Positions 3,992-22,318 of a stretch of 64,000 nt of DNA are shown piece after piece. Position 1 is the first letter of the stretch, and each line of letters begins with the position of its first letter. This DNA is from Nocardioidaceae bacterium (GTDB taxonomy: Bacteria > Actinomycetota > Actinomycetes > Propionibacteriales > Nocardioidaceae): NCBI GenBank assembly GCA_030655315.1, contig JAURVT010000043.1, positions 62,001-126,000 on the forward strand, given 5' to 3'. Both the position numbers and the translations under genes were made by a program. Below the pieces are notes generated by a model. It saw only the letters and a list, made by a program, of their open reading frames with translations. It was not told the DNA's origin and searched no databases.

Positions 3992-4831
3992 ATGACCCAG
4001 ACCACCGAGCCCGGGACCGACCCCGGCGCCGACGACCGCGCCCTGAAGTCCCGGCACGCCACCATGTGGGCGCTGGGCGACTACCCCACCCTCGCCGCCG
4101 AGGTGATCGCCGACCTCGGGCCGACCCTGGTGGAGGCGTGCGGGATCACCCTCGGTGACCGCGTTCTCGACGTCGCAGCCGGCTCGGGCAACGCGGCGAT
4201 CCCCGCGGCGCTCGCCGGCGCGGACGTGACCGCCACCGACCTCACCCCCGAGCTCCTGGAGGCGGGTCGCGCCGCAGCCGGCGCGCGCGGGGCCCGGCTG
4301 GAGTGGCGCCGGGCCGATGCCGAGGCGCTCCCGTTCGCGGACGACACGTTCGACGTCGTCATGTCGTGCGTCGGCGTGATGTTCGCGCCGCACCACCAGC
4401 GGGGTGCGGACGAGATGGTGCGCGTGTGCCGCCCCGGCGGCACCATCGGCCTGCTGAGCTGGACGCCGGCCGGGTTCGTCGGGCAGATGTTCGGGGCCCT
4501 GCGCCCCTACGTCCCGCCGCCGCCCGCAGGCGTCGACCCACCGCCCCTGTGGGGCGACGCCGAGCACGTGCGCGACCTCCTGGGTGACCGGGTCGTCGAC
4601 GTCGACGCGCGTCGGCAGACGCTGTGCGTCGACCGGTTCGGCACACCGGCGCAGTTCCGCGACTACTTCAAGACCGCCTACGGCCCGGTCGTCGCCGCCT
4701 ACGCGCAGCTGCCCGACGCCGAGGCCGCGACCGACCTCGACACCGACCTCGACGCCCTCGCCGCCCGGCACCTCGATGGGGAGGCGATGGACTGGGAGTA
4801 CCTGCTGCTCACCTGCCGCGTCCGGGACTGA
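3992..4831 (+). CDS. Class I SAM-dependent methyltransferase
   Basis: A 279-aa cytoplasmic methyltransferase. Motif I, VLDVAAGSGNAA (residues about 57-68), binds S-adenosylmethionine, followed by the acidic VTATDLTPELL (motif II) and ADAEALPFADDTFDVVMSC (motif III/IV). This is the methyltransferase-11 pattern found in UbiE/phosphoethanolamine-type enzymes. The substrate cannot be assigned. GAGGAGAG (3978-3985) before the ATG supports the start. It reads away from the SRPBCC gene and is not clearly in an operon with the next gene, which has its own leaderless start. Confidence 0.85.
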   Translation: MTQTTEPGTDPGADDRALKSRHATMWALGDYPTLAAEVIADLGPTLVEACGITLGDRVLDVAAGSGNAAIPAALAGADVTATDLTPELLEAGRAAAGARGARLEWRRADAEALPFADDTFDVVMSCVGVMFAPHHQRGADEMVRVCRPGGTIGLLSWTPAGFVGQMFGALRPYVPPPPAGVDPPPLWGDAEHVRDLLGDRVVDVDARRQTLCVDRFGTPAQFRDYFKTAYGPVVAAYAQLPDAEAATDLDTDLDALAARHLDGEAMDWEYLLLTCRVRD

Positions 4832-4888
4832 GCACGAGGTCGACCCACCTGAGCACCCGGACGGGTGCCGGCCGAGCCGTCGGTGCGC

Positions 4889-4894
4889 CACGCT
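4889..4894 (+). promoter_or_regulatory. Leaderless -10 hexamer (CACGCT)
   Basis: CACGCT lies exactly 6 bases upstream of the ATG at 4901, with no ribosome binding site. This supports starting the membrane protein there rather than at an upstream ATG at 4865. Confidence 0.35.
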
Positions 4895-4900
4895 GGGCCC

Positions 4901-5308
4901 ATGAGCGACGACGTCCCCACGCCCCGGCAGCGTCTGGTCGGGTTCGTCGTGGCGGCCGTGGTCCTCGCGGTCGTCGGCGTCGTCGCGGCCGACGCGGTGG
5001 CCGCCGCGGGCCTGCTCGGTGCGCCGGGGCTGTGGCTCGTGGTGGGCGTGGTGGCGATCGGTCGACCCCGCCTCGCGGGCGGTGTGCTCGTGCTGGGGGT
5101 GGTCGCGCTCGGCGGCGCGGTGGTGGGGTCGTCCGACGACCAGCTCCGTGGGTTCGCCACCCTCGCGACCCTGCTCGCCGCCGCGGGCGGGTCGTTCGCC
5201 TGGGGCGCCGGTTCGGCGGTGCACCTCGCGGTGGCCCGGGTCCGCCGGTCGCGCCGCGAGGAGTCGGCTCGCGACCGTGCCGGCGGGTGGGACACGATGC
5301 CTCCATGA
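4901..5308 (+). CDS. Small membrane protein, unknown function
   Basis: A 135-aa protein with three or four hydrophobic segments (roughly residues 14-33, 34-52, 57-76 and 83-101) and a basic, arginine-rich tail that should be cytoplasmic. No enzyme motif is visible and I do not recognise the family. Its stop overlaps the start of the AI-2E-type permease (ATGA), so the two are probably co-translated. Confidence 0.65.
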   Translation: MSDDVPTPRQRLVGFVVAAVVLAVVGVVAADAVAAAGLLGAPGLWLVVGVVAIGRPRLAGGVLVLGVVALGGAVVGSSDDQLRGFATLATLLAAAGGSFAWGAGSAVHLAVARVRRSRREESARDRAGGWDTMPP

Positions 5309-6486
5309 GCAGCACACCGGACGACGGCGCCGCGGGCGCCCAGCACCTCCCCTCGCGCGAGCAGGTGGTGGGCCACGGCGTCGCCTGGTCGGCGCGGTGG
5401 GCCGGCCGGCTGATCGTCGTCGCCGTGGGCCTGGTCGTGCTCGGCCTCGTCGTCGAGCGGGTGTGGAGCATCCTGCTGCCGGTCGTCCTCGGCCTCGTGG
5501 TCGCCACCCTGCTGGAGCCGCCTGCCCGCCTGCTGCACCGCCGGCTCCGGGTGCCCCACGGGGCGGCCTCAGGCCTGGTCGTGGTGGCCGCGATCCTCGT
5601 GGTCGGCCTGGTCATCACCTTCCTCGCCTCCACCATCGTCGACCAGGTCGCCGAGGTGGTCACCAGCGCCGCCGACGGGCTGGACGAGCTCGCCCGGATC
5701 GTCCGCGGCACGGGCGTCGACGTCAGCCAGTCCCAGCTCGACACCGCGATCGCCGCGGTCCAGGACCGTCTGCAGTCCAGCGCGTCCTCGATCGCCTCGG
5801 GCGTGCTGGTCGGCGTCGGCGCGGTGACCAACACCCTGGTCAACCTCGTCCTGACGCTGGTGCTCGCCTTCTTCTTCGTCAAGGACGGGCACCGGTTCGT
5901 GCCGTGGCTCGCGGCGAGCGCCGGACCGAGCGCCGGCCCGCACGTGGCGGAGGTCCTGCACCGGTCCTGGTCGGCCCTCGGCCACTTCGTCCGGACGCAG
6001 GCGCTGGTCGGGCTCATCGACGCGGTCCTCATCGGCGCGGGCCTCGCGATCGTCGGCGTGCCGCTGGTCCTGCCCCTGGCGGTCCTCACGTTCGTGGCCG
6101 CGTTCGCGCCCATCGTCGGTGCCATCACCGTCGGCGCCCTCGCGGTGCTGGTGGCCCTGGTCTCCAACGGCTGGGTGGCCGCCCTCGTCGTCGCGGGCAT
6201 CGTGCTGCTCGTCCAGCAGCTCGAGGGCAACGTGCTCCTGCCGTTCCTGCAGGGACGCAGCCTCGGCCTGCACGCCGTCGTGGTGCTGCTCGCCGTGGTG
6301 CTCGGCTCGACGCTGTTCGGCGTCGCCGGGGCGTTCCTGTCGGTGCCGTTCGTGGCCGTGGCCGCCGTGCTGGTGCGCTACCTGAACGAGGTGGTGGCCG
6401 CGCGGTCGGCTCCGGCGCCGTCGCCGGCGAGCGCGGCGGCCGAGGCGGACGCCGAGGCCGACGCCGAGCAGGCGTCCCGGGGCTGA
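5305..6486 (+). CDS. AI-2E family transporter (TqsA/PerM-like)
   Basis: A 393-aa polytopic membrane protein of the AI-2E transporter family (PF01594). It has paired N-terminal membrane helices (about residues 30-70), a long amphipathic segment rich in DQVAEVVTSAADGLDELARIV, and a C-terminal hydrophobic bundle with the conserved VALVSNGWVAALVVAGIVLLVQQLEGNVLLPFLQGRSLGLH region (about 285-325), including the family's QQ-E-N pattern. Members export autoinducers or act as Na+/H+ antiporters; the substrate here is unknown. The tail is alanine- and acidic-rich. Start overlaps the preceding stop. Confidence 0.88.
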   Translation: MSSTPDDGAAGAQHLPSREQVVGHGVAWSARWAGRLIVVAVGLVVLGLVVERVWSILLPVVLGLVVATLLEPPARLLHRRLRVPHGAASGLVVVAAILVVGLVITFLASTIVDQVAEVVTSAADGLDELARIVRGTGVDVSQSQLDTAIAAVQDRLQSSASSIASGVLVGVGAVTNTLVNLVLTLVLAFFFVKDGHRFVPWLAASAGPSAGPHVAEVLHRSWSALGHFVRTQALVGLIDAVLIGAGLAIVGVPLVLPLAVLTFVAAFAPIVGAITVGALAVLVALVSNGWVAALVVAGIVLLVQQLEGNVLLPFLQGRSLGLHAVVVLLAVVLGSTLFGVAGAFLSVPFVAVAAVLVRYLNEVVAARSAPAPSPASAAAEADAEADAEQASRG

Positions 6487-6596
6487 GCCCGTGCGCGTGC
6501 GGACCGGAGGGTGCGGCGATCCCGGACGAGGCGGGCCGGTGTTGACTGGTCGGCAATGACCCGGCCGCGCGTCGGCCCCGTTCGTGAGGAGAGCCC

Positions 6597-7625
6597 GTGC
6601 ACATCGGTGTCGACAGCTTCGTGGCCGCAGTGACCGACCCGTCGACGGGGGAGGAGATCGGCGCCGAGAAGCGGATGGAGCACCTCCTCGAGGAGATCGC
6701 GCTGGCCGACGAGGTGGGTCTGTACTCGTTCGGCATCGGGGAGCACCACCGCAGCGAGTACTACGACTCCGCGCCGGCGGTCATCCTGGCCGCAGCGGCG
6801 GCCCGCACGTCGCGGATCCGGCTCGGCAGCGCGGTCAACGTGCTGTCGGCCGCCGACCCGGTGCGGGTGTTCCAGGAGTACGCGACCCTCGACCTGATCT
6901 CGAAGGGGCGGATCGACCTCGTCGTCGGACGGGGGTCGTTCACCGAGGCGTTCCCGCTGTTCGGGCTCGACCTCGCCGACTACGACACCCTGTTCACCGA
7001 GAAGCTCGACCTCCTGCTCCGCATCCGCGAGTCGACCAACGTCACCTGGTCCGGACGGCACCGCCCCGCCCTGCGCGGCCAGGGCGTGTACCCGCGCCCC
7101 GTGCAGGAGAGGCTGCCGGTCTGGATCGGCGTCGGCGGCACCCCCGCGTCCTTCGCGCGTGCGGGCCACCTCGGGCTGCCGCTGATGGTGGCGATCATCG
7201 GCGGCCAGCCCCGTCAGTTCGCGCCCATGATCGAGCTCTACCGGCAGTCCGGGGCCCAGGCGGGCCATGCCCCCGAGGACCTCCAGGTGGGGCTGCACGT
7301 GTTCGGCTTCGTCGCCGACAGCGTCGAGGCGGCGTCCGACACCATCTACCCGGGCTGGAACGAGATGTTCACCAAGATCTCGCGCGAGCGCGGGTTCTCC
7401 GCGCCCTCGCGCCTGCAGTTCAACAACACCGCCGGACCCGACGGCGCCTTCTTCATGGGCGACCCCGACACGCTCGCGGCCAAGATCGTCCGCATCTCCG
7501 AGCAGCTCGGCGGCGTCGACCGGATCTCGCTGCAGATGACCAACCCGCGCCTGGCCCACTCGGACCTCCTGCGCGGCATCGAGCTCCTCGGCACCCAGGT
7601 CGCCCCGCTCGTCGCCGACGCCTGA
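6597..7625 (+). CDS. LLM class flavin-dependent oxidoreductase
   Basis: A 342-aa luciferase-like monooxygenase fold protein. Visible family features are GIGEHHRSEYYDSAP (residues about 46-60), TSRIRLGSAVNVLSAADPVRVFQEYATLDLISKGRIDLVVGRGSF (about 71-115) and VWIGVGGTPASFARA. This TIM-barrel family uses FMN or F420; the EHH pattern and overall layout suit the FMN-type bacterial luciferase-like group. The GTG start is supported by GTGAGGAGAG (6584-6593). It is convergent with the LysR gene. Substrate unknown. Confidence 0.88.
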   Translation: MHIGVDSFVAAVTDPSTGEEIGAEKRMEHLLEEIALADEVGLYSFGIGEHHRSEYYDSAPAVILAAAAARTSRIRLGSAVNVLSAADPVRVFQEYATLDLISKGRIDLVVGRGSFTEAFPLFGLDLADYDTLFTEKLDLLLRIRESTNVTWSGRHRPALRGQGVYPRPVQERLPVWIGVGGTPASFARAGHLGLPLMVAIIGGQPRQFAPMIELYRQSGAQAGHAPEDLQVGLHVFGFVADSVEAASDTIYPGWNEMFTKISRERGFSAPSRLQFNNTAGPDGAFFMGDPDTLAAKIVRISEQLGGVDRISLQMTNPRLAHSDLLRGIELLGTQVAPLVADA

Positions 7626-7632
7626 GGTCCCC

Positions 7633-7658
7633 CGACGAGTCGGTGCGACTACTCGTCG
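7633..7658. terminator. Hairpin between convergent LLM and lysR genes
   Basis: CGACGAGT (7633-7640) pairs perfectly with ACTCGTCG (7651-7658) around a 10-base loop. It overlaps the last codons of the leftward LysR gene, so it may act in both directions. There is no T-run. Confidence 0.4.
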
Positions 7659-8614
7659 TCGTGGCCGCGCCGCTCGTGGTCCGGGCCGAGGCGGTCGGGC
7701 TCGAGGGTCGACAGGGCGGCGCGCAGGAACCGGGTGAGGACGGGCGACCGGCGCTCGCCGCGCCGCCAGAGCACCACGGCCTCGACCGGCGCCGTCGGCT
7801 CCGACAGCCGGACCACCCGGACCGGTGACGACGCGCCGCCCACGGCGGACGCGACCGACGACGGCACCAGCGCGAACCCGCTGCCGCCCTCCACCAGGCG
7901 GACCGTCGTCTCCATGCTCGTCAGCCGGCGGCGGACGGGCGGCTCGACGCCCTCGCGCTCCCACACCTCCCGCGCCTGCTGCGCGACGCCGGGGAACCCG
8001 TCGTGCACGACCGGGGCGAGCCACCGCTCCGACGCGAGCCGGCCAAGCGCGACGTCGTCGGCGCCCGCGAGGGCGTGCGCGGCGGGCACGACGGCGACGA
8101 GGGGCTCGCGCCTGATCATCGCGACCTCGAGGTCGCGGGCGTGCAGGCGCTCCAGGTGGGAGGCGCGGGAGCAGTAGACCAGGCCGACGTCGCACGTGCG
8201 CCCGCGGACGAGGTCGACCACGTCGGGCTCGACCGCGTCGACGACCTCGGTGGTCACGTCGGGGGTGAGGGCGTCGAAGCGCTGCAGGAGCGAGGGGAGG
8301 AGCTCCCAGGCGCAGCCCGGTGACGCCGCGATCGACAGGCTGCCCTGGGTGCCGGTGCCGACCGAGCGGACGCTGGCCTCGGCGTCCTCGAGGTCGGCGA
8401 GGATCGTGCCCGCGCGGGCGACGAGGTGCTCGCCGGCCTCGGTCGGCTCGACGCCGCGTCCGTGGCGCTCGAGCAACGACACCCCCAGCTCGCGCTCGAG
8501 CTGGGCGATCGAGGCCGACAGCGGGGGCTGCGTCATGTGCAGGCGGGCCGCGGCCCGGGTGAACGACCGCTCCTGCACCACGGCGGTGAGGTAGCGCAGC
8601 TGACGGATCTCCAT
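7649..8614 (-). CDS. LysR-family transcriptional regulator of the aromatic cluster
   Basis: A 321-aa LysR regulator: N-terminal winged HTH (MEIRQLRYLTAVVQERSFTR, QPPLSASIAQLERELGVSLLER, residues 1-60) and a periplasmic-binding-like effector domain (about 88-300). It is transcribed divergently from maleylacetate reductase, the usual layout for a LysR activator of ring-cleavage genes such as the chlorocatechol and hydroxyquinol regulators. Two short dyads in the 72-base gap are candidate sites. The expected effector is a pathway intermediate; which one is not visible in the sequence. Confidence 0.92.
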   Translation of the reverse strand: MEIRQLRYLTAVVQERSFTRAAARLHMTQPPLSASIAQLERELGVSLLERHGRGVEPTEAGEHLVARAGTILADLEDAEASVRSVGTGTQGSLSIAASPGCAWELLPSLLQRFDALTPDVTTEVVDAVEPDVVDLVRGRTCDVGLVYCSRASHLERLHARDLEVAMIRREPLVAVVPAAHALAGADDVALGRLASERWLAPVVHDGFPGVAQQAREVWEREGVEPPVRRRLTSMETTVRLVEGGSGFALVPSSVASAVGGASSPVRVVRLSEPTAPVEAVVLWRRGERRSPVLTRFLRAALSTLEPDRLGPDHERRGHDDE

Positions 8615-17677: not shown

Positions 17678-18115
17678 ATGACGACCACCACGCAGCCGCT
17701 GCCCCCCTTCCACCTCGCGCTCCCGGTGCACGACATCGATGCCGCGCGCCACTTCTACGGAGAGGTCCTCGGCTTCGGTCGTGGTCGCTCGGACGTGCGC
17801 TGGACCGACTGGAACGTCGACGGGCACCAGGTCGTCACGCACCAGGTCGACGACCACCGCAACGCCGTCGCGGGCACCAACCCGGTCGACGGCCACGAGG
17901 TGCCCGTGCCGCACTTCGGCCTCGTGCTGTCGGTCGAGCGGTTCCAGGAGCTGGCCGGCCGGCTCACCGAGGCCGGCACCGACTTCGTGATCGAGCCCTA
18001 CGTCCGCTTCGAGGGCGAGCCCGGCGAGCAGTGGACGATGTTCTTCCTCGACCCCTCGGGCAACGCGCTCGAGTTCAAGGCCTTCCAGGACCTCTCCCAG
18101 CTGTTCGCGGTCTGA
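17678..18115 (+). CDS. VOC superfamily protein (glyoxalase/dioxygenase fold)
   Basis: A 145-aa vicinal-oxygen-chelate protein with two paired beta-alpha-beta-beta-beta units: FHLALPVHDIDAARHFYGEVLGF (residues about 10-32) and a second unit ending MFFLDPSGNALEFKAF (about 122-137). The potential metal ligands His12, His74 area and Glu135 are in the expected places. It may be an isomerase, lyase or small dioxygenase. It is followed after 2 bases by the XRE-cupin regulator gene, an apparent two-gene operon with its own operator-covered promoter. Confidence 0.82.
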   Translation: MTTTTQPLPPFHLALPVHDIDAARHFYGEVLGFGRGRSDVRWTDWNVDGHQVVTHQVDDHRNAVAGTNPVDGHEVPVPHFGLVLSVERFQELAGRLTEAGTDFVIEPYVRFEGEPGEQWTMFFLDPSGNALEFKAFQDLSQLFAV

Positions 18116-18117
18116 GC

Positions 18118-18711
18118 GTGTCGCCGGCTGACGAGGGGACGGGCGAGGGCGAGCTCGCGCGGGGGTTCCTGGTCACCGTCGGCTCGCGCATCCGGGCGCT
18201 GCGCGCGGAGCGGTCGATGACCGTGCAGCAGCTCGCCGACCGGGCCGAGGTGAGCCGCCGGCTGATGACCCAGATCGAGCTCGGCCAGGCCAACCCCAGC
18301 CTGGTGGCGATCACCCGGATCGCGCGTCAGCTGGGCACCGAGTTCACCGAGCTCCTCAGCGCTCCGGCCGAGACCCCCGTGCAGGTGCACGCCGCCGGCG
18401 CGCACGTGCTCGTGTGGTCGAGCGAGGCCGGCAGCACCGCCCACCTGCTCGCCGCCTCCGACACCCGGGCCGCCGACCTCTGGCTCTGGCGGCTGCTGCC
18501 CGGTGACGGCTACGCGGGCCGGGCCGACCCGGCGCGCTCGCAGGAGCTGTTCTACGTCCTGTCCGGCTCCCTCACCCTCGCCGTCGACGGCCTGGAGGTC
18601 GTCGTCGGCCCCGGCGCGTCGAGCCGCCTGCGCAGCGACCGCGCCTACACCTACGCCAACCCCGGCACCACCCCCGTCACGTTCGTCCGCACCGTCGCCC
18701 TCACCCCCTGA
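18118..18711 (+). CDS. XRE-family regulator with C-terminal cupin
   Basis: A 197-aa regulator: a Cro/C1-type HTH (SRIRALRAERSMTVQQLADRAEVSRRLMTQIELGQANPSL, residues about 22-62) joined to a cupin sensor domain (about 90-190, with PGDGYAGRADPARSQELFYVLSGSLTLAVDG). Such XRE-cupin proteins sense small metabolites and often autoregulate. The GTG start is chosen because the upstream part of the frame overlaps the VOC gene; no strong ribosome site is seen, so translation may be coupled. It is convergent with the repeat-flanked gene. Confidence 0.88.
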   Translation: MSPADEGTGEGELARGFLVTVGSRIRALRAERSMTVQQLADRAEVSRRLMTQIELGQANPSLVAITRIARQLGTEFTELLSAPAETPVQVHAAGAHVLVWSSEAGSTAHLLAASDTRAADLWLWRLLPGDGYAGRADPARSQELFYVLSGSLTLAVDGLEVVVGPGASSRLRSDRAYTYANPGTTPVTFVRTVALTP

Positions 18712-18719
18712 CGCGCCCC

Positions 18720-18814
18720 GTCGGATTCCCAGGTAGGCACGGTCTTCCGACAGGACCCCGGAGAACTTCCCGTGGTCCTGTCGGATCCCCGGGTGAGGTG
18801 GGACGGGTGGGACG
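18720..18814. repeat. Left 95-bp inverted repeat with internal hairpin
   Basis: Inverted copy of 19908-20002: I count about 78 of 95 matching positions with no gaps. It contains a hairpin: 18747-18761 pairs with 18770-18784 (14 of 15 pairs) around an 8-base loop. Compared with the right copy, stem pair 6 is A-T here and G-C there, and pair 8 is G-C here and A-T there: paired changes that keep the stem. The inner 18 bases (18797-18814) and outer 24 bases (one mismatch) are the best conserved. Being between convergent genes, it may also terminate transcription. Confidence 0.85.
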
Positions 18815-18820
18815 GCGACG

Positions 18821-19807
18821 TCAGACGAGCGACGCGCGCGCCGGCACGAAGAGCTGACGGGACTGCTCGATCTCGCGACGCAGGCGCTCGGCCGTCCGGC
18901 CCTCGTTGCGGTCGAGCACGTCGGACCACACGAAGCGGCTCATCCCGGCGCGGGTGGCGCGGAGCCGGTCCTCGCGGGCCTTCTCGCGGACGACGGCGTC
19001 GGACGCGGTCTCGCCCTCGCGGACGAGGCGGAGGTACTTGACCTTGCCGTCGAACTCGCCGAGGTGGCGGCCGTCGAGCCAGCTGAAGTCGGTCCGTCCG
19101 GCGACCCCGAGCGCGTCGCGCACCACGCGCTGCAGCTCGGGACGGGGGAGTCCGAACACCTTGCAGATCCAGCGGACCAATGTCTCGCCCGGCGACTCGG
19201 CGCGGGCGTCGGCGAAGGCCAGCACGAGGCGGAACCGGGCGGCCTGGGGCCAGCGCTCGAAGATCCGCTCGATCGCGGTGAGCTCGTCGACCGTGACCAG
19301 CCCCAGGTGCAGCGCCGAGTCGACCATCACCGCCGCACGCTTCTGGTCGACGAGCGTGGCCGCCTGACGCAGCGCGGCCGCGGGAGCGACCACGAGCTGC
19401 CCGTGCGCGTCCCGGGCGACGTGCGGGAGCAGCGGGGACTTGGCCTCGTGGTGGCAGACGCCGGACTCGCGGCGGCTCGATCCGCCGTCGAGCCGCAGCG
19501 CGTGGACGGTGCGCAGGTCGACGTCGACGGTGGCGATCCCGTGGGCGAGGACCGCCGTCGTGTGCGAGAGCGCGACCCGGTTGCCGAGCTTGTGGGTGCA
19601 GGCCCGCGCGGCCACGAGGTGCTGCTCCTGGGGGGCCAGGGCCCTGAACGCCTCGCCGGGGGCGTACGCGCCGACGCGCACCCGCTCCCACTCGTGCGTG
19701 TGCAGGGCCTCGCGGATGCTGCGGTCGTGGTGGCCGATCGAGAGCGCCTGCTCGCGGGTGAAGTAGCCGCCGCCGGCCTCGGCGACGAGCTCGAGATAGG
19801 GGTCCAT
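18821..19807 (-). CDS. AbiEi-type winged-helix protein with nuclease-like C-terminal fold
   Basis: A 328-aa protein. The N-terminal 60 residues (GYFTREQALSIGHHDRSIREAL, then WERVRVGAYAPGE) match the winged-helix pattern of AbiEi-type antitoxin-like proteins. The C-terminal part carries GRTDFSWLDGRHLGEFDGK, giving Asp240, Glu251, Asp253 and Lys255, which can be read as a PD-(D/E)XK nuclease core of the DUF559/Vsr-like sort, preceded by ESPGETLVRW. No toxin partner is adjacent. The gene fills the space between two 95-bp inverted repeats. The start at 19807 is preferred because upstream frame sequence runs into the repeat. Activity is inference. Confidence 0.7.
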   Translation of the reverse strand: MDPYLELVAEAGGGYFTREQALSIGHHDRSIREALHTHEWERVRVGAYAPGEAFRALAPQEQHLVAARACTHKLGNRVALSHTTAVLAHGIATVDVDLRTVHALRLDGGSSRRESGVCHHEAKSPLLPHVARDAHGQLVVAPAAALRQAATLVDQKRAAVMVDSALHLGLVTVDELTAIERIFERWPQAARFRLVLAFADARAESPGETLVRWICKVFGLPRPELQRVVRDALGVAGRTDFSWLDGRHLGEFDGKVKYLRLVREGETASDAVVREKAREDRLRATRAGMSRFVWSDVLDRNEGRTAERLRREIEQSRQLFVPARASLV

Positions 19808-19907
19808 GCACCACAGGCTGGCGGTGCGACGACGGCGGCGGCACCCGTCGTCGGTCCACCTGTGGACGGCCGGCACCCTCGCGCACCCCTGTGGACGACG
19901 GGCGGCT

Positions 19908-20002
19908 CGTCCCACCCGTCCCACCCGGCACGGAGAACCGACGGAACCACGGAGAGTTCGCCGTGGTTCCGTCGGACAACCGTGCCTACCTGGGAAACCG
20001 AC
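19908..20002. repeat. Right 95-bp inverted repeat with internal hairpin
   Basis: Inverted partner of 18720-18814. Its hairpin is perfect: 19938-19952 (CCGACGGAACCACGG) pairs with 19961-19975 around an 8-base loop. It lies between divergent genes, upstream of both, where a terminator would make little sense. That favours a mobile-element or structural role over simple termination. I see no clear target-site duplication outside the two copies. Confidence 0.85.
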
Positions 20003-20137: not shown

Positions 20138-22318
20138 ATGGACCAGCGAGTTGAGGTCGGAGGCCTGAGGGTCGCCGAGGAGCTGCACCGGTTCGTCGAG
20201 GACGAGGCGCTGCCCGGCTCGGGCGTGGAGCCCGCGGCGTTCTGGGACGGCCTGGGCGCGATCGTGCGCGACCTGGCGCCGCGCAACCGCGAGCTGCTCG
20301 CCCGCCGAGACGAGCTCCAGGCCTCGCTGGACGGCTGGCACCGCGAGCACCCCGGCACGCCCGACCCCGACGCGTACGCCGGGTTCCTGCGCGAGATCGG
20401 CTACCTCCTCGACGAGCCCGCCGACGTCGCCGTGACGACGTCCGACGTCGACGACGAGGTCGCCCGGCTCGCCGGTCCGCAGCTGGTGGTGCCGCTGCTC
20501 AACGCGCGCTTCGCCACCAACGCCGTCAACGCGCGGTGGGGCTCGCTCTACGACGCCCTCTACGGCTCCGACGTCGTCCCCCAGGAGGGCGACCTCGCAC
20601 CGGGCCAGGGCTACAACCGGGCCCGCGGTGACGAGGTCATCGCCCGCGGCCGGGCCTTGCTCGACGCGCACTTCGCGCTCGCGACGGGCTCGCACGTCGA
20701 CGCCACCGCCTACGCCGTGGACGACGACGGCCTCGCCGTCACCGTCGACGGCGCCGTGGTGCGGCTCGCCGACCCGGCCCAGCTGGTCGGCCACCGCGGC
20801 TCGAGGGACGCGCCCGAGGGTGTCGTGCTCAAGCACCACGGGCTGCACGTCGAGATCCAGGTCGACGCCGAGCACGCCATCGGCAGCACCGACCGCGCCG
20901 GCGTCAAGGACCTGCTGGTCGAGTCCGCCGTCAGCACGATCATGGACCTCGAGGACTCCGTCGCCGCCGTCGACGCCGCCGACAAGGTGCTCGGCTACCG
21001 CAACTGGCTGCACCTGATGAGCGGCACGCTCGCCGAGGAGGTCACCAAGGGCGGCACGACCTTCACCCGGTCGATGAACGCCGACCGCACCTGCACCTCG
21101 CCCTCGGGCGAGGAGGTCACGCTGCGCGGACGCTCGCTGCTCTTCATCCGCCAGGTCGGCCACCTGATGACCACCGACGCCGTCCTCGACGCCGACGGCC
21201 AGGAGGTGCCCGAGGGCATCCTCGACGCGGTCGTCACGGCGCTGGGCAGCCTCGCCGACCTGCAGGGCCGCACCGAGCGCGCCAACTCCCTCACCGGCTC
21301 GATGTACGTCGTCAAGCCCAAGATGCACGGCCCCGACGAGGTCGCGTTCGCCGTCGAGCTGTTCGGACGGGTCGAGCAGCTGCTCGGCATGACGCCGCTG
21401 TCGATCAAGGTCGGGATCATGGACGAGGAGCGGCGCACCACGCTCAACCTCAAGGCCTGCATCGAGCAGGCCCGCGAGCGCCTCGCGTTCATCAACACCG
21501 GCTTTCTCGACCGCACCGGTGACGAGATCCACACCTCGATGCAGGCCGGCCCGGTGGTCCGCAAGGGCGCCATGAAGAGCGAGGGCTGGATCGCGGCGTA
21601 CGAGGACCTCAACGTCGACATCGGCCTGGAGTCCGGGCTGCTCGGCCGCGCCCAGATCGGCAAGGGCATGTGGGCCGCGCCCGACAGCCTCGCCGCCATG
21701 TACGAGGCGAAGATCGGTCACCCGAAGGCCGGCGCCAGCTGTGCCTGGGTGCCGTCGCCGACGGCCGCGACGGTGCACGCGCTGCACTACCACCAGGTCG
21801 ACGTCCGGGCCCGCCAGGAGGAGCTGCGCGACGGTGGCCGACGTGCCGACCGCTCCCAGCTGCTGCACGTGCCGCTCGGCGACCCGACCACCTGGTCCGA
21901 CGAGGACCGCCAGCAGGAGATCGACAACAACCTGCAGTCGCTGCTCGGCTACGTCGTCCGCTGGGTCGACGCCGGGGTGGGGTGCTCCAAGGTCCCCGAC
22001 ATCACCGGCGAGGCGCTGATGGAGGACCGCGCCACCTGCCGCATCAGCGCGCAGCACGTCGCCAACTGGCTGCTCCACGGCGTCGTCGACGCCGACCAGG
22101 TCGAGCAGACCCTGCGCCGCATGGCCGAGGTCGTCGACGGGCAGAACAGCGCCGACCCGACCTACCTGCCCATGGCCCCGGCCTTCGACGGCGACGCGTT
22201 CGCCGCCGCCCGCGAGCTCGTGCTCGGCGGCCTGGACCAGCCCGCCGGCTACACCGAGCCGATCCTGCACCGCCGCCGCGCGGAGCAGAAGACCCACCAG
22301 AAGGAGAACGCCTCGTGA
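20138..22318 (+). CDS. glcB: Malate synthase G
   Basis: Condenses glyoxylate with acetyl-CoA to malate. The 726-aa length fits the monomeric G isoform. Recognisable regions are [18 protein letters not shown] (about residues 267-284), [14 protein letters not shown] (about 502-515) and [22 protein letters not shown] (about 536-557). GAAGGAG (20127-20133) supports the ATG. It is the first gene of the glycolate operon and consumes the glyoxylate made by GlcDEF. The stop overlaps the glcG start. Confidence 0.95.

Follow-up and report, generated by a model that had tools for sequence, protein, structure and literature searches.

What is a single nuclease-like gene doing between two long inverted repeats, each with its own hairpin? 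The locus lies in a window of 64,000 nucleotides (the whole stretch of DNA that was analysed) from a Nocardioidaceae bacterium. An earlier note, made from the letters alone, had described two ungapped 95-bp copies in opposite orientation around one gene (18821-19807) and had suggested a mobile or domesticated cassette in which a nuclease takes the place of a transposase. Alignment confirmed this geometry: the two arms are 82% complementary (78/95) without gaps, 1093 nt lie between them, and the right-arm head is identical to the left-arm head save for one substitution.

18031-18711, plus strand: left neighbour, an ORF for an XRE-type repressor with a cupin-like part (named by reading its translation); it ends 8 bp short of the left arm and is outside the element
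18720-18814, plus strand: left arm, 95 bp, made of head, hairpin and tail
18720-18742: left-arm head GTCGGATTCCCAGGTAGGCACGG, outermost, 23 nt
18746-18785: left-arm hairpin, stem 18746-18761 / 18770-18785, loop of 8 nt
after the left hairpin: GC-rich left-arm tail GTGAGGTGGGACGGGTGGGACGG, common to gene-less inverted pairs
18821-19807, minus strand: nuclease gene, ATG to TGA, 328 codons, 328 aa, the sole gene between the arms
about residues 1-57 of its product: predicted AbiEi-type winged helix, followed by an AbiEi-like middle part
18851-19201, minus strand: predicted nuclease domain, PD-(D/E)XK, Vsr / I-Bth0305I-like, C-terminal (residues 203-319)
19908-20002, minus strand: right arm, 95-bp inverted copy, head outermost at 19980-20002
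19937-19976: right-arm hairpin, stem 19937-19952 / 19961-19976, loop of 8 nt
20138-22318, plus strand: right neighbour, a malate synthase G-like gene whose upstream region contains the right arm; outside the element

Searches of Rfam and NCBIfam gave no match for the window element. The stems of the two arms differ at two pairs, and both sides were changed in each, as had been noticed earlier. The further claim that structure is selected fared less well. Among 63 units of the arm family, pairing is clearly above the expectation for independent columns at just two pairs of the stem (unit columns 33-60 and 37-56), and most stem columns pair no oftener than independence predicts, so that covariation argues only faintly for structural selection.

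The enclosed gene is predicted to encode an AbiEi-type winged helix fused to a PD-(D/E)XK nuclease of the Vsr / I-Bth0305I type, at the level of fold. This domain assignment, already proposed in the earlier note, is borne out by profile matches, an AlphaFold2 model (pLDDT 93.8, pTM 0.90, from a 45-member alignment) and structure comparison of that model. On the AbiEi side, residues 1-200 of the model resemble the AbiEi antitoxin 6y8q (Z 9.1), PADLOC AbiEi models match the protein down to E 2e-15, and the Pfam family AbiEi_4 scores 24.9 bits against a cut-off of 25. On the nuclease side, residues 203-319 align with the catalytic domain of the homing endonuclease I-Bth0305I (3r3p; Z 9.4, 97 residues, 2.5 Å) and with Vsr (1cw0; Z 8.0), values of about 8-9 being evidence of fold and not of function. 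The modelled core is alpha-beta-beta-beta-alpha-beta, with helix 206-217, strands 224-231, 234-243 and 248-252, helix 268-283 and strand 288-292. In the family alignment E208, D240, E251, D253 and K257 are invariant. Of the residues named earlier, Asp240 and Asp253 thus stand, and Lys255 is nearly invariant rather than strict, being Ala in a 40%-identical paralog (L049). The window protein matches neither the DUF559 (PF04480) nor the REase_MTES_1575 model, whereas distant paralogs of the same genome match both in the nuclease domain, and two of them (L052 and L053) pass the DUF559 cut-off.

The arm is not confined to this gene. A search of the 4.18-Mb genome with the arm gave 76 matches, and the aligned copies resolve into 38 further loci that carry no gene, which answers the earlier suggestion that solitary, REPIN-like hairpin copies might exist. 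The dispersed copies occur in three forms:

form 1: a 92-bp palindrome, that is, head, hairpin and inverted head
form 2: a single arm, that is, head, hairpin and tail
form 3: an inverted pair of 209-254 bp, that is, arm, short centre and inverted arm

The window cassette corresponds to form 3 with a gene in its centre, and the gene-less pairs carry the same tails. The head is nearly invariant across the 63 units, and the base just outside the element is always a purine on the right and, with one exception, a pyrimidine on the left. None of the 22 elements with complete ends has a target-site duplication (direct repeat of 2-9 bp). Apart from short, chance-like pieces, the arm repeat was not found in any of 294 further genomes from its taxonomic family, and from this absence and the 38 loci here we conclude that the copies multiplied in this lineage. 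IS-like ends TGTCAGGACATCNGTGACA, perhaps of the IS481 type, abut or interrupt palindrome copies at three loci (L037:133-208, L038:133-208 and L046 near 1485), and two contigs start at such TGTCAGGACATCNGTGACA ends beside palindrome copies.

The copies lie mostly downstream of genes: 20 are in convergent, 11 in tandem and 1 in divergent intergenic positions, against a baseline of 11/23/11 in the window. Such a preference would suit palindromes that are ordinary bidirectional terminators, or REP elements that some other enzyme moves, with nuclease genes that merely survive between the palindromes, and this explanation appears improbable to us. In the window itself the right arm lies between divergent genes and not at a gene end, and the other evidence against it comes from the relatives of the gene.

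We sampled the nearest relatives of the window protein (31-43% identity over most of the length) on actinobacterial contigs, for example of Nocardioides, Rhodococcus, Gordonia and Microlunatus, and scored an inverted repeat within 450 bp of both gene ends at thresholds of E<1e-3 and E<1e-10. Inverted palindromic arms were detected around 63 of the 79 testable relatives at E<1e-3 and around 52 of 79 at E<1e-10. The relatives do carry arms, then, and the search of related genomes sustained the earlier reading. In contrast, control genes rarely had flanking inverted repeats (neighbour genes, 2/46 and 0/46 at the two thresholds), and random pseudo-cassettes had them in 22/936 and 1/936 cases. The single strong repeat of the random control (at L079) is not a pair of true arms; it comes from two secretion-type ATPase genes that are homologous and lie on opposite strands. 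With only one such repeat among 936 pseudo-cassettes at E<1e-10, and with 38 further loci in the genome, a chance origin of the window arms is excluded. In a second sample of 20 Gordonia paralog loci, which includes a few short or truncated reading frames, arms were present at 13/20 (E<1e-3) and 11/20 (E<1e-10). The remaining 16 of the 79 relatives had no detectable arms in the tested span, and some of these have decayed or more distant arms.

The arms of relatives are strong hairpins built on one plan, with sequences that differ by lineage. Of 12 Nocardioides genomes, 6 have dispersed copies of related arms (25-54 matches each), and two Gordonia species have them at several further loci. In Desertihabitans (L122) the arms, at 4731-4877 and 5914-6060, are 147 bp long, roughly double the normal length, and contain two palindromes in succession. 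Directly after the stop codon N. albus has a downstream palindrome, which is missing in N. luteus JCM 3358.

In most relatives some 80-140 bp separate the upstream arm from the start codon. This position, together with the binding of AbiEi antitoxins to inverted repeats in their own promoter (PMC7319586), gives some ground for autoregulation, in which the protein would bind the inverted repeats to control its own gene and the genome-wide copies would be regulatory targets. We regard it as the least probable of the alternatives considered. It offers no place for a second, inverted arm downstream of the gene, the solitary copies stand at gene 3' ends and not at promoters, and a repressor needs no intact nuclease fold with invariant acidic residues.

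How specific is the pairing of gene and palindrome? All six AbiEi/nuclease genes of the window genome are bracketed, each by different arms. Identities among the five other paralogs, and between each of them and the window protein, are 27-40%, and the arms of these paralogs are mutually unrelated. For example, the 40%-identical paralog L049 (G000:C43:88750-89966) has its own arm family, dispersed at about 20 further loci. At another locus (L051; G000:C9:127557, just past the window end), inverted tandem CGATCCGTCG-like arrays without a clear hairpin flank the nuclease paralog. Across the sampled loci, arms are common to 40 of 64 locus pairs with more than 60% protein identity and to none of 1607 pairs with less than 40%. 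When all locus pairs are taken together, the more similar two proteins are, the more similar are their arms (Mantel r 0.56, reached in 0 of 2000 permutations). Within a genome, only paralogs with closely similar proteins have related arms. Judged from these sequence comparisons, the arms track the protein and not the host, and each nuclease lineage has its own. Ordinary terminators, or palindromes served by another enzyme, would not be expected to behave in this way; the copies are mostly downstream of genes, yet they are specific to a nuclease. None of the results that the earlier note had listed as refuting its reading was obtained.

The cassette also behaves as a discrete unit, as had been supposed from the repeats. 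When related cassettes at unrelated sites are compared, homology covers everything between the two outer arm ends and breaks off at, or close to, these ends. In one genome, for instance, the homology between L079 and L086 covers 4789-6017 and the arms span 4787-6001. The pairs L090/L098 (within one genome), L083/L098 and L094/L098 likewise run from arm end to arm end, and no flanking homology beyond the arms was found among cassettes at unrelated sites. Close relatives show the other side of its inheritance. Both neighbours are shared by 17 of 19 cassette pairs that are more than 80% identical, from which we conclude that the gene is largely vertical and the cassette rarely mobile.

Sites without the cassette were compared in several lineages. 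In several Gordonia species the cassette has a VOC-type gene on one side and a convergent aldolase gene on the other; at this site a decayed remnant is found in one genome (G355), and the cassette is absent in two others (G369 and G379). In these two genomes (L192 and L191, respectively) the cassette-less site is a short convergent intergenic region with a different palindrome (CGCATGAAAGTCACCGCAG...) that may be a solitary member of the family belonging to another nuclease; the palindrome at the G379 site had no match near the two G379 paralogs compared. For the window cassette, flanks that are directly adjacent were seen in no genome of the family. The malate synthase gene is conserved elsewhere in the family without the cassette; 10 of 11 related loci have no nuclease-like gene near it, and one has a distant (26%) match. 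A unique solitary copy in G. sputi is missing at the orthologous sites of two genomes (G330 and G356), and the junctions are not clean. Near L160:1862, in the comparison of Gordonia sputi with jacobaea (L160 and L167), interspecies homology starts about 190 bp from a solitary palindrome, which suggests a rearrangement breakpoint nearby. Gene order is also rearranged directly downstream of the cassette between N. luteus and N. albus (L092 versus L093 and L103, around 6000-8000), with the breakpoint near the downstream palindrome.

The Gordonia site, occupied in several species, decayed in one genome and without a cassette in two, can also be read as the trace of a homing-like selfish cassette. 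The nuclease would cut the empty site or the palindrome, homologous repair would copy the cassette in, and the palindromes would be by-products of recognition and repair and not mobile units. Among solved structures, moreover, a homing endonuclease (I-Bth0305I) is nearest in fold to the nuclease domain. This reading is unlikely, and the best placed of the three alternatives; it leaves dozens of gene-less copies at unrelated intergenic sites unexplained, cassettes at unrelated sites have no homology in their flanks, and the solitary head-hairpin-head form differs from a cassette minus its gene.

The homing, terminator and autoregulation explanations account for less and rank below the reading that we prefer. 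With a probability of roughly 0.6, the locus is a REPtron-like (REPIN/RAYT-like) element built on an unrelated, homing-endonuclease-like nuclease. By analogy with REPtrons, the nuclease most probably acts on its own palindrome and would do the moving in place of a transposase. The unit would be an arm, the nuclease gene and an inverted arm, with the heads outward. The winged helix and the nuclease domain would recognise the palindrome of their lineage, probably in a hairpin or cruciform state that replication or transcription exposes, and the nuclease would nick or cut at the outer end of the palindrome and promote its copying. Copies, mostly gene-less and of the head-hairpin-head or paired form, would enter intergenic DNA at new places, downstream of genes, with no duplication of the target, and the gene-bearing cassette would move rarely and otherwise be inherited vertically, like RAYT genes. 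Neither the lack of target duplications nor the symmetry of the outer ends favours a DDE transposase; both speak against one. As a counterpoint to the proposed role of the nuclease, another, unrecognised enzyme could move the palindromes.

We give about even odds to a wider proposal. The large AbiEi/DUF559-type nuclease superfamily of Actinomycetota, whose genes are at present annotated as antitoxin or hypothetical protein, may comprise the enzymes of unrecognised palindrome-bounded mobile elements, each dispersing its own palindrome through the host genome by a nuclease-based, duplication-free mechanism with an origin separate from that of HUH transposases. If the REPtron-like reading is right, the lifestyle of REP plus enzyme had two or more origins in evolution, and a homing-endonuclease-like nuclease was the starting point of the second. 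A role would be found for a common group of actinobacterial genes that look like antitoxins or like unknowns, and numerous dispersed palindromes of high-GC genomes, so far unexplained, could be assigned to an enzyme. In addition, with several enzyme-palindrome pairs in a genome, the spread and persistence of palindromes would become directly testable with a new enzyme class.

Compared with known systems, the element shares features with several. In AbiE type IV toxin-antitoxin systems, the solved antitoxin and the AbiEi models resemble the N-terminal and middle parts of the window protein; the adjoining AbiEii nucleotidyltransferase toxin gene is, however, absent here, and a nuclease domain is added after the AbiEi part. 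Without a toxin partner, and as a lone gene between arms with XRE-cupin-like and malate synthase-like neighbours, the locus is not an AbiE system. Vsr-like homing endonucleases such as I-Bth0305I have the same nuclease-domain fold, but here it is fused to an AbiEi-type winged helix and free-standing in a palindrome-bounded cassette with dispersed gene-less palindromes. The DUF559 and REase_MTES_1575 families are related through the nuclease domains of the distant paralogs, although the window protein reaches neither model. Our literature search, with most subscription papers and preprints outside its scope, found no link of these two families to flanking palindromes and no description of AbiEi/DUF559-type nucleases with such palindromes, in agreement with the earlier impression that the arrangement had not been described. 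Bacterial MITEs and their parent IS are similar in that gene-less inverted pairs share arms and tails with a gene-bearing form; they differ in that the present element has no target-site duplication and no DDE transposase gene.

The closest likeness in lifestyle is to REPtrons, in which palindromes without a gene are dispersed by an enzyme whose single-copy, mostly vertical gene is flanked by inverted palindromes (PMC3116915, PMC8049555, PMC8266576). As in REPIN/RAYT (TnpA-REP) systems, a single-copy, mostly vertical enzyme gene lies between inverted palindromes, gene-less palindromes occur in extragenic DNA singly and as inverted doublets, different enzymes of one genome have different palindromes, and enzyme and palindrome co-vary. 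The arms are mostly 65-100 bp, in contrast to the 20-40 bp given for REPs in PMC3733652. The enzymes also differ, since RAYT is an HUH/Y1 (IS200/IS605-like) transposase and the window protein is predicted to combine an AbiEi winged helix with a Vsr-like PD-(D/E)XK domain. A RAYT enzyme was considered as the mover and rejected: the genome has no Y1_Tnp (PF01797) match at E<=1, and 10 of 14 control genomes were positive. Because this enzyme is lacking, no AbiE toxin partner is present and the literature search found no description, we regard the system as categorically new, with the role of the nuclease proposed by analogy. If a kind is defined by lifestyle rather than by enzyme, the system would be a variant of the REPIN/RAYT kind.
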